Origin: Nitrospira sp. | GTDB taxonomy: Bacteria; Nitrospirota; Thermodesulfovibrionia; Thermodesulfovibrionales; SM23-35 | NCBI GenBank assembly: GCA_016873615.1 | Contig: VGWX01000008.1 | Coordinates: 1-47,264, forward strand | Length of the DNA stretch: 47,264 nt | Direction: 5' to 3' | Shown: one piece after another, positions 40,511 through 44,250 of the stretch | How positions within the stretch are numbered: position 1 is the first letter of the stretch | Layout of the letters: every line of letters starts with the position of its first letter | The notes under the pieces: model-generated | Database searches by the model: none | What the model saw: only the letters and a program-made list of their open reading frames with translations | Told to the model about the DNA's origin: nothing | Program-made: the position numbers and the translations under genes

Positions 40511-40568
40511 CCCTTGATTTCACTGGTGGCGGGAAGAGGATTTGAACCTCTGACCTTCGGGTTATGAG
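40511..40568 (-). repeat. Displaced 3' part of tRNA-fMet: left attachment-site repeat of an island
   Basis: These 58 bp match 44161-44218 with only two mismatches (40521 and 40534). They comprise 13 bp beyond the CCA end and the tRNA's 3' 45 nt up to the anticodon loop (GTTATGAG), where similarity stops sharply. A 5' half is absent, so no tRNA can be made here. Recombination in the anticodon loop with repeat duplication is the usual result of tyrosine integrase insertion. Confidence 0.85.
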
Positions 40569-40857
40569 AATTTTTTAGGCAATTTTTATAAGTGGGCTTC
40601 CTACCTACATATTGCAATATAGGCTATAATTATCAATAAGTTAAATGATTCTATTGTTTAAGGTATTTTCTGCCATTTAAGACCTTTAGGATATTTTTGG
40701 TTACAATTTGGTTACAATTTCATATAACAATAACTTCCTGAAATGTTGTATTGCAGGTAAAGATTCAAACATCATCATTTCGAATAAAAATCGACAAAGA
40801 GATAGCTTTCAATGATTTCAATTGCCAGCTTAGCCTTATCAGAGTATAATTAACGAA
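40569..40857. other. Left end of the island, with tandem TTGGTTACAAT repeats
   Basis: This AT-rich non-coding stretch carries two immediate copies of TTGGTTACAAT (40697-40707 and 40708-40718). Short tandem repeats at this place, inside an island and near its attachment repeat, resemble integrase arm-binding sites, but no integrase gene is present. No other feature was recognised. Confidence 0.4.
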
Positions 40858-41181
40858 ATGAATAACGAAGATAAAGAAGAACGCAGGAAATACGAAAGAT
40901 TCCTTTTTAGAGAAGACATCCTGATAGACGGCACAAGAATGTGTACGAGTATGGATATAAGCGAAATTGGTCTTTATATTTCCACAATGCAATCTTATGA
41001 AAATAATAGTGTAATTGATATAACTATTCCTTTTAAGGGAGACAAGTTAACGGTTAAAGCACGAGTCCGGCATTGTCAACCAGGAATCGGGATGGGTTTT
41101 ATGTTCGTTGACTTAAACCCTGAGCAGAGAGCTAAAATTAAGGAATTAATCGAAAGTATAACAAAAAAACCTGCCCAATAA
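40858..41181 (+). CDS. PilZ-domain c-di-GMP-binding protein
   Basis: A 107-residue single PilZ domain. RRKYERF near the N-terminus gives the RxxxR motif, and DISEIGLYI gives the D/NxSxxG motif, the two c-di-GMP-binding elements, followed by beta strands IDITIPFKGDKLTVKARV. Stand-alone PilZ proteins act as c-di-GMP receptors controlling motility, pili or polysaccharide. It is one of two clear genes on the tRNA island. AT-rich codon use contrasts with the cdaA operon to the right. Confidence 0.9.
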   Translation: MNNEDKEERRKYERFLFREDILIDGTRMCTSMDISEIGLYISTMQSYENNSVIDITIPFKGDKLTVKARVRHCQPGIGMGFMFVDLNPEQRAKIKELIESITKKPAQ

Positions 41182-41560
41182 GATTCCAGCCCCTATGATT
41201 GTAAGTGAGAGTTTGGAAAAGGCCCCGTTTCTTGCAGGGCGAAAGATGCACAGCATTCCAAAGAGGCCTGAAGAGAAAAGCATCCTTCCTGGAGTCAACG
41301 CGCAAAGAAGTCGACCCAGAGCACCACAGTTCCGAATAGAAATGTGCACATCCAACAGTGACTGAATCCTGCGAAATACAACATGACAATTATGAATGTT
41401 CAATCTTGACGTGAAATCAAGCATTTCAAGCTAAATCAATGAGAATAAATCTTTAACTCCTACGAAGGTAGATGTATTGACCTCACCTGAAGAAAATAAT
41501 AAAATATAAAATAAAACTATATATATAGAAAGAAATTATTATAGTTATAGGGAAAAAGCG
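41182..41560. other. Intergenic region on the island
   Basis: No well supported gene. A minus-strand frame (41146-41424) includes a hydrophobic stretch (LTIIGAGILLGRFF) and looks faintly like a small membrane protein, but it overlaps the PilZ gene end and has no ribosome site. The final 100 bp before 41561 are very AT-rich and probably hold the promoter of the MEDS-PAS gene. Confidence 0.35.
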
Positions 41561-43789
41561 ATGCTAAGAACGACAGGCATACATATCGTTCCAGATGTTC
41601 CGTGGGGAACGCATATTTGTCAATTTTATCAGAATAAGAAAGATTTAATAGATATTCTTGTTCCTTACTGTAAGGCAGGATTGGAAAGTAACGAGTTCTG
41701 CATGTGGATTACTTCAGCGCCTCTGTACAAGAAAGAAATCGAGACTTCAATGAGAAAAGTGTTGCCAGATCTTGATGACTATTTTATGAAAGGCCAGATC
41801 GAAATCATAGCTCACACAAAGTGGTATCTCCGTAACGGTATTTTCGATCCAAAAAAAGTTTTGAATAGCTGGCTTGATAAGTTAGAGAATGCTCTCTCTG
41901 CAGGGTATGACGGCATGAGAGTAACTGGGAATGTATCATGGTTAAGAAAGAAATACTGGGAGAAATATATCGATTACGAACAGGAGATCAATAATATAAT
42001 CAGCAAATACAAGTTGATAGCAATTTGTAGTGTCCCGCTGAATACATTATCCCAAACTGAAGTTATCGATGTTGTGTTTAGGCATGGGTATGCCCTTTTT
42101 AAGCATAGAGGTAAATGGTCTCTGATTCAGGACACCCAGCGTAAGAAGATCACTGAGGAACTACAAAAGAGCGCAGATAGGTTAAAACTGATTGCATCAA
42201 GGGGTGTTGATTTTATCTTTCAGCTTAACACACAGGGAAACTTAATCTATCGTTCACCGTCTATTGAAAGATATGGGTATTCTCTTGAAGAAATAATAGG
42301 GACGGATTTTTCAGATTATGTTTTACCAGCAAATCTTCCAAAGGCAAGAGAGGCATTTCAAAGGACGCTTTCGGGAGAAACTGTAGAATTGCTTGAATTT
42401 CAAATGTTACGCAAGGATCGAACACCTTTTTACACGGAAGTTAATTTGACGCCTATCTTCGAAAAAGGAGTGGTTATAGGTGTTCAGGGGATAGCGAGGG
42501 ATATCACCGAGAGAAAACAGACAGAAGAAAAACTAAGGGAATCAGAGGAAAAATACAGATCTATTTTTGATAATACGGGAACTGCCACAGTCATTATAGA
42601 AGAAGATACAACGATCGCTTTAATAAACACGGAAGGTGAAAAACTTACCGGCTATACAAAGGAAGAAATAGAAGGTAAGAAGAGCTGGACAGAAATTATG
42701 GCGAGAGAAGAGTTGGAGAGGTTGAAAGAGTATCACCGCATGAGAAGAATCAATCCTGATCTTGTTCCGAGGAACTATGAGACCATTTTAATGGATAAAA
42801 ACGGGGATATAAGAAATGTTCTCGTGACGGCTGGTATGATTCCGGGAACGAAAAAAAGTATAGCTTCTCTTTTAGATATAACTGAGCGAAAACGGGTAAG
42901 GGAAGCTCTATTAAAAGCCGAACGCAAATATCGTGAATTATATGAAAATCTTAGAGACGGGATAGTTTCTGTAGATATGAATGGTAATATTATTGAATTC
43001 AATGATGCATTTCAAGCCATGCTTGGATATGAAAAAGATGAGATTAATAAACTTACATACAAAGACATTACTCCCCGGAAATGGCATCATATTGAAGAAA
43101 ATATTCTCAAAGAGCAAGTATTTGAAAGAGGATATTCTTTCCTCTATGAAAAGGAATATATCAGAAAAGATGGAACTATATCCCCTGTTGAATTAAGAAC
43201 TTATCTCATCAAAGATGAAAACGGCGATCCCACAGGCGTATGGGCTTCTGTGAGGGACATTACTAAACGGAGAAAAGCTGAAAAAGGATTGAAAGAAAGC
43301 GAAGAACAATACCGGACATTAGTCGAGAATGTGAACATCGGTATTTATAGAAATACGGGTGGCCCTCATGGGCGCTTTATTCAAGCAAACCCTGCTATGG
43401 CTAAGATATTCGGTTATGATTCTGTTCAAGAGTTCATGGAGATTAGTGCGTCAGACCATTATCAAGATACAGCAGATCGAGAGCGCTTTGTCGAGGAAAT
43501 TACAAAGCAAGGCTTTGTGAAAAATAAAGAATTGAAACTAAAGAAAAAAGATGGAACGGCAATATGGATTTCGGTAACTGCTCAAGCTCATTTTGAAAAT
43601 GGAGATCTGAAATGGATTGACGGAGTAGTTGAGGATATAACAGATCGAAAACATGCAGAAAAAGAGATTAAAAAGAAGGTTAAGGAACTTGAAGATTTCT
43701 ATGAAATGGCTGTTGGTAGAGAATTAAGGATCAAGGAACTGAAAGAGAAAGTAGAAGAATTAGAAGAAAAGTTCGCCAAGCTCAAATAG
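41561..43789 (+). CDS. MEDS-domain multi-PAS sensory protein without kinase domain
   Basis: The 742-residue soluble protein starts with a MEDS domain (about 8-200: HICQFYQNKKDLIDILVPY, CMWITSAPLY, GYDGMRVTGNVSWLRKKYW), known from methanogen and methylotroph sensors. Four PAS domains follow (about 205-325, 330-450, 455-575, 580-705), joined by DITERK-type linkers. A terminal coiled coil, VKELEDFYEMAVGREL then KEKVEELEEKF, ends the protein. No histidine kinase, GGDEF or receiver domain is present, so output must be through a partner. The second PAS closely resembles that of the pseudogene at 5855. It lies on the tRNA-fMet island with the PilZ gene. Confidence 0.9.
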   Translation: MLRTTGIHIVPDVPWGTHICQFYQNKKDLIDILVPYCKAGLESNEFCMWITSAPLYKKEIETSMRKVLPDLDDYFMKGQIEIIAHTKWYLRNGIFDPKKVLNSWLDKLENALSAGYDGMRVTGNVSWLRKKYWEKYIDYEQEINNIISKYKLIAICSVPLNTLSQTEVIDVVFRHGYALFKHRGKWSLIQDTQRKKITEELQKSADRLKLIASRGVDFIFQLNTQGNLIYRSPSIERYGYSLEEIIGTDFSDYVLPANLPKAREAFQRTLSGETVELLEFQMLRKDRTPFYTEVNLTPIFEKGVVIGVQGIARDITERKQTEEKLRESEEKYRSIFDNTGTATVIIEEDTTIALINTEGEKLTGYTKEEIEGKKSWTEIMAREELERLKEYHRMRRINPDLVPRNYETILMDKNGDIRNVLVTAGMIPGTKKSIASLLDITERKRVREALLKAERKYRELYENLRDGIVSVDMNGNIIEFNDAFQAMLGYEKDEINKLTYKDITPRKWHHIEENILKEQVFERGYSFLYEKEYIRKDGTISPVELRTYLIKDENGDPTGVWASVRDITKRRKAEKGLKESEEQYRTLVENVNIGIYRNTGGPHGRFIQANPAMAKIFGYDSVQEFMEISASDHYQDTADRERFVEEITKQGFVKNKELKLKKKDGTAIWISVTAQAHFENGDLKWIDGVVEDITDRKHAEKEIKKKVKELEDFYEMAVGRELRIKELKEKVEELEEKFAKLK

Positions 43790-44128
43790 ATTAATGAGAA
43801 AAAATAAAAACAAATTATTCGATTTTAAACTCTAAAAGCTACTGTAATTTGGATGTTCCTATCACCTGATTTGATCATTTTTATTCGAAATCCGCACTCA
43901 ATTGAGAAAATACGATTTGCACACTTGATGAATTATGTGGAGCTGCACATAACATGAAGGAAGTGATAAACCCTCTATATACCGGAAAACGTTTGCTCGT
44001 AGGTGAAGTCCTTATTTCATCCCCTCAGTTTATACACAAGGTTTATATTGTCTGATGATATGAGCATATCTCATTTGTATATTTCTACTGTTCAGTTTTA
44101 AGTCTGGGGTAGCTATAGGGTATCTAAA
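43790..44128. other. Right part of the island, non-coding
   Basis: About 340 bp without a recognisable gene, ribosome site or repeat. It separates the MEDS-PAS gene from the tRNA terminator. A decayed integrase could have stood here, but I see no remaining motif. Confidence 0.4.
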
Positions 44129-44162
44129 ATAAAAAAAGGTTTAACCTTATTTTGGCTAAACC
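44129..44162 (-). terminator. Rho-independent terminator of tRNA-fMet
   Basis: On the minus strand GGTTTAGCC pairs with GGTTAAACC (9-bp stem with one weak pair, 7-nt loop) and is followed by TTTTTTTATT. It lies 11 nt beyond the CCA end of the tRNA and overlaps the attachment repeat by 2 bp. Confidence 0.75.
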
Positions 44163-44218
44163 CTTGATTTTACTGGTGGCGGGGAGAGGATTTGAACCTC
44201 TGACCTTCGGGTTATGAG
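44161..44218 (-). repeat. Right attachment-site repeat inside tRNA-fMet
   Basis: This is the partner of the 58-bp repeat at 40511-40568. It covers the 3' 45 nt of the intact tRNA from the anticodon loop to CCA plus 13 bp downstream. It regenerates the tRNA 3' end after insertion of the 3.65-kb island. Confidence 0.85.
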
Positions 44219-44250
44219 CCCGACGAGCTACCAGGCTGCTCCACCCCGCG
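44174..44250 (-). tRNA. Initiator tRNA-Met (CAT)
   Basis: A 77-nt gene starting CGCGGGGTGGAGCAGCCTGG and ending CCCCGCCACCA, with the CCA encoded. The anticodon loop CTCATAA gives CAT. Two initiator hallmarks are visible: an unpaired first position (C1 opposite C72) and three G-C pairs next to the anticodon loop (GGGCTCATAACCC). The 5' part is nearly identical to the E. coli fMet tRNA. The T-arm is AGAGGTTCAAATCCTCT. Confidence 0.97.

Follow-up and report, generated by a model that had tools for sequence, protein, structure and literature searches.

A 3.65-kb segment of a Nitrospirota chromosome, bounded by an intact initiator tRNA-Met gene and a displaced copy of that gene's 3' part, is very probably a decayed genomic island that a tyrosine integrase inserted at the tRNA and that later lost its integrase. 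The segment lies in a window (the whole stretch of DNA analyzed, 47,264 nucleotides) from a metagenome-assembled genome of 2.9 Mb in 216 contigs. This reading is based on the geometry of a direct repeat, the pairing of an intact tRNA gene with a displaced fragment, the lower GC content between them, the presence of islands with an integrase at this site in relatives, and the position of a candidate arm motif.

Features of the island and its ends, by window position:
40485-40512, minus strand: terminator hairpin with T-run after the displaced copy (hairpin energy, z-score)
40508-40568, minus strand: left repeat copy, probably the displaced tRNA 3' part, attR-like, from CTCATAA (repeat search)
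40699-40717, plus strand: tandem GGTTACAATTTGGTTACAA, a probable site of arm-type integrase binding, lying 131 bp inward of the displaced copy (sequence comparison)
40858-41181, plus strand: cargo gene, single-domain PilZ protein, 107 aa (PF07238, E 2.5e-12)
41561-43789, plus strand: cargo gene, MEDS sensor domain and four PAS stretches, 742 aa (domain matches)
43790-44157, no strand: noncoding end next to the tRNA, where one would expect an inner arm site and also the integrase that many relatives have here (matches none of the fetched loci)
44130-44165, minus strand: terminator hairpin with T-run, immediately 3' of the probably regenerated tRNA (hairpin energy, z-score)
44158-44218, minus strand: right repeat copy, the tRNA-proximal att (repeat search)
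44174-44250, minus strand: initiator tRNA-Met(CAT), intact; from the anticodon loop on, probably the regenerated, attL-like copy of the 3' part (ARAGORN, Rfam)

A displaced end of the initiator tRNA gene

The repeat consists of two 61-nt copies (40508-40568 and 44158-44218) that are 95% identical, with 3 mismatches, and that start 3650 nt apart, a similarity far beyond chance. An earlier note on this DNA had described 58 bp of it, a stretch that holds two of the three mismatches, and had assigned the right copy to an intact tRNA-fMet and the left to a displaced 3' part ending at the anticodon loop; both assignments stand. ARAGORN and Rfam find a single tRNA in the window, the tRNA-Met(CAT) at 44174-44250 on the minus strand, which we take to be the initiator from its GGG/CCC anticodon stem and the lack of a Watson-Crick pair at 1:72, and the right copy is the 3' part of this gene. 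The left copy begins at CTCATAA in the anticodon loop (CTCATAACCC...), exactly where similarity between the copies stops. It has no 5' half, and no tRNA is called there by ARAGORN, or by Rfam even at E=10. When the genome was searched with the left end of the island, the tRNA part was present in these two copies only. One mutation in the left copy falls in the acceptor/T region, and the 5% divergence between copies, including this change in a copy that would be free of selection, fits an insertion of some age.

Each copy is followed by its own hairpin and T-run, -10.0 kcal/mol (z -2.7) on the left and a different one of -14.2 kcal/mol (z -4.1) after the tRNA. The left hairpin had been described as a relic terminator; it is present as described but says little about the original flank, because in relatives near-identical terminators separate tRNA-fMet from integrase DNA, and for that reason we dropped it as the ancestral terminator.

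Composition and cargo of the island

The interval of about 3.6 kb has a GC content of 36.3%, compared with 46.0% on its left, 43.6% on its right, 43.2% in a further flank, and 43.9% in the whole window. Its ends are noncoding, and its coding content is limited to the PilZ and MEDS-PAS genes, whose identification from sequence in the earlier note is borne out by domain matches. These two have the lowest GC and GC3 among the 36 tabulated genes of the window. The PilZ protein is a probable c-di-GMP receptor. No output domain was found in the MEDS-PAS protein, which is the only MEDS family member in its genome; a search of 175 genomes of the order for a close full-length homologue found none, the best match being partial, at up to 55% identity. 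Island DNA had no match among plasmids, and the island PilZ protein had none among phages.

Close relatives of this PilZ tend to lie near tRNA genes. A tRNA gene is found within 3 kb of 8 of 17 homologues that are at least 45% identical, versus 0 of 37 more distant ones (Fisher p 2e-5), a comparison in which the identity threshold was picked afterwards and some of the cases are orthologous. The eight loci (L263, L264, L267, L269, L273, L274, L277, and L278) are in other genomes of the order and involve various tRNA genes. A displaced tRNA fragment is clear in only one of them, that of genome G002 (L269, G002:C1, 6327-8525), where a 2.1-kb islet at tRNA-Thr carries a displaced tRNA end (36 bp) as well as small toxin-antitoxin-like genes; the PilZ gene, related to that of the window, lies next to the islet, immediately beyond the fragment.

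The same tRNA locus in relatives

In most genomes of the family, tRNA-fMet is divergent from an adjoining cdaA. The earlier note had proposed looking in relatives for an empty site and for integrase-bearing islands at the same tRNA, and both exist. In G008, of a different genus, the locus is island-free and reads dinG end, 277 bp, tRNA-fMet, cdaA; its dinG-like helicase gene is 74% identical to window positions 32256-34175. A dinG remnant also lies beside tRNA-fMet in G013. After the orthologous tRNA, G001 has a terminator, a PF00589 integrase, a RelB/YafQ pair, and, 2.3 kb away, a displaced 3' part from CTCATAA. G019 shares this layout; its integrase is 54% identical to the G010 one and has one in-frame stop in the translation examined. 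In G010, the nearest genome by CdaA, a 401-aa integrase adjoins tRNA-fMet, and an assembly gap of N lies exactly over the expected repeat. Further displaced fMet 3' parts occur in G009 and G019, with boundaries close to that of the window. Beside tRNA-fMet in G002, G014, and G016 the integrase persists only as fragments, so its loss at this site has happened repeatedly.

These islands, the arrangement in G008, and the probable arm site discussed below support the tyrosine-integrase insertion that had been suggested from sequence. A partial tRNA copy close by in the same orientation could also be left by tandem duplication of the initiator gene, one copy then losing its 5' half, with native genes between. 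We consider this extremely improbable, since the similarity ends exactly at the anticodon loop, a boundary identical to that of the G001 integrase island and near those of G019 and G009; the interior is AT-rich; an arm motif lies inside the left end; and none of 21 relatives searched has two full initiator tRNA genes. No relative examined has the PilZ and MEDS pair at the tRNA-fMet locus. Insertion of this particular cargo is therefore not seen as a presence/absence pair within the genus, of which our genome is the sole member among those compared.

The island accounts for 3.65 kb of the 10.0 kb between dinG and the tRNA in the window. The other 6.3 kb (34176-40510), which encode a T2SSE (type II/IV secretion) ATPase, a DUF4388 protein, and two AAA_14/DUF4143 proteins, are likewise not found in G008 between dinG and tRNA-fMet. 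More than one event has thus shaped the locus, the other probably being a further accretion or a rearrangement. One could propose that the left copy came from a different, larger island and that the 3.65 kb form a single unit within a tandem array that extends left across 34.2-40.5 kb. The absence of the 6.3 kb from G008 and a tandem-like att junction in G009 (C109) favor such an array, as does a weak tRNA 3'-half-like sequence on the minus strand between the two AAA_14/DUF4143 genes (38972-39025, 31 of 45 positions identical to fMet). That sequence, perhaps an older displaced end and perhaps chance, is too degenerate to assign and could derive from another tRNA, and 34.2-40.5 kb contain no integrase or clear end; we regard the array as unlikely, with some real chance of being correct. 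The G009 junction itself (L246, near position 6950 of C109) joins a displaced fMet 3' part to the integrase-side type of flank and could be a tandem island or an excised-circle junction.

A candidate arm site inside the displaced end

The tandem GGTTACAATTTGGTTACAA at 40699-40717 occurs once in the genome and is, judging from sequence comparison, a probable surviving integrase arm site. G014, of the same family, has an identical 19 bp within the 3' end of a tyrosine integrase gene that adjoins tRNA-Leu. Scanning genome contigs for the motif gave at least 118 stretches; 11 of the 118 listed have a tRNA within 200 bp, compared with 1.2% of bases (p 1.8e-7), and in 9 of those 11 the motif is downstream of the tRNA, 57 to 152 bp past its 3' end. 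In 83 motif loci, 7 integrase ORFs were found, all within 135 bp of the motif, a nonexhaustive count, made with a profile from few seeds, in which 6 are independent (G014 is counted twice).

The full arrangement is seen in two related Halieaceae contigs with tRNA-Arg islands of about 9 kb, each with a PF00589 integrase and the motif inside both ends, about 60 bp from tRNA-Arg and about 105 bp before a displaced 50- to 53-bp fragment. That displaced 3' fragment also begins at the anticodon loop. The left end of the window's island is arranged as the displaced end of these islands, and on its tRNA side no motif was found.

We tested whether all matches mark att sites and rejected this, because most Clostridial matches have no tRNA or integrase nearby; the motif is thus not exclusive to att sites and is no proof alone. 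In the Clostridial records (L078-L195), GGTTACAAnTTGGTTACAA is frequent in Oscillospiraceae/Ruminococcus and would have another function. A Desantisbacteria locus (L085, 2760-2960) has three tandem motif copies and, about 110 bp away, a tRNA-like 5' half that breaks off near the anticodon loop; it has additional similarity (81% over 74 bp) to the left end of the window's island. It is possible, though less likely than not, both that tandem GGTTACAAnTTGGTTACAA is a conserved arm-site code common to tRNA-targeting integrases of several phyla and groups (Nitrospirota, Halieaceae, Akkermansiaceae, Nitrosovibrio, Methylomirabilis, and deltaproteobacteria) and that, in the order, tRNA islets repeatedly carry single-domain PilZ genes of this subfamily.

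Loss of the integrase and present mobility

That no integrase remains, as the earlier note had it, agrees with our searches: relatives' integrases gave nothing convincing across 37.5-44.3 kb, and the island (40.5-44.2 kb) has no integrase ORF or relic. Nor does it contain a transfer gene or relaxase. The genome does carry integrases, but none exceeds about 30% identity, across most of its length, with either the fMet integrase of relatives or the integrase associated with the motif; this assembly therefore offers no likely helper.

A satellite or MITE-like element mobilized in trans, which never had its own integrase and used that of a co-resident island, would also keep both att-like ends and one arm site, and integrases for this site are present in related genomes. 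The distance of the genome's own integrases from the fMet and motif-associated ones, the single occurrence of the arm motif at one end only, and the lack of a second copy of the element make this origin very unlikely. The genome may contain a further tRNA islet, at a different gene: the downstream flank of tRNA-Asn is duplicated on another contig (L068, G000:C80, 1456-1570, and L067, G000:C105, 1501-1533), where it adjoins a few bases of tRNA end.

For a decayed island, events would have run as follows. Recombination by a tyrosine integrase, in the anticodon loop of the only initiator tRNA-Met gene, would have brought a small integrative element into the chromosome. The element's own tRNA 3' part would have restored the gene, while the original 3' part, displaced by 3.65 kb, would have drifted in its new position. 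With the later loss of the integrase and the tRNA-side arm sites, only attL, attR, a single tandem arm site at the end away from the tRNA, and the PilZ and MEDS-PAS genes would have stayed. We infer both the loss and this order of events from what is left. With no integrase in place, none similar to those of relatives elsewhere in the genome, and the tRNA-side motif missing, the element is probably a CIME-like remnant that has become immobile and most likely cannot excise on its own.

Comparison with known islands

In Nitrospirota, small islands have landed repeatedly at the initiator tRNA gene, a single-copy gene in this family. Such islands can carry sensory genes, here those for a PAS sensor and a probable c-di-GMP receptor, and a surviving arm motif offers a way to recognize islands that lack an integrase by sequence. 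In E. coli, metV is an initiator tRNA gene. It is among the tDNAs most frequently used there (PMC7545054), so the initiator tRNA, which the earlier note had called a seldom noted integration target, is not a rare one. Islands at metV in E. coli and relatives (PMC7545054, PMC2907695) share the initiator tRNA gene as their site with the window island, but are larger, carry pathogenicity or T6SS cargo, and occur where there are several initiator genes per genome.

The G001 integrase-RelB/YafQ islet (L055), from the same family, shares tRNA-fMet and the boundary and is similar in size (2.3 kb). It differs in having an integrase, a toxin-antitoxin pair, and other arm-like repeats (TTCTAAC), and so probably belongs to a different integrase group. 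The Halieaceae tRNA-Arg islands (L103/L132 and L165/L183) share tandem GGTTACAAnTTGGTTACAA inside the displaced end and the anticodon-loop boundary, but have the motif at both ends, an integrase, a length of about 9 kb, and another tRNA.

CIMEs are cis-mobilizable elements that retain attL and attR and have lost integration and transfer genes (PMC5704250). The window island likewise keeps attL- and attR-like sites (its arm motif at one end only) and lacks such genes. It shows no sign of ever having had transfer genes, and it has no relaxase or transfer gene that would point to descent from an ICE or IME. Islander lists 3760 islands with a 3' tDNA fragment and 2083 of the anticodon-centered A type (PMC4383910). 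As in those, an intact tRNA at one end, a displaced 3' fragment in the same orientation at the other, and an anticodon-loop crossover define the window island, and a relative of a different genus, G008, lacks the island; unlike them, it has no integrase gene and is small. Because islands with 3' fragments and anticodon crossovers, CIMEs, and the use of metV are known, the window island adds one example to a known class, a little unusual in its cargo, in its single-copy target, and in an integrase type that is perhaps recognizable from the leftover arm site.
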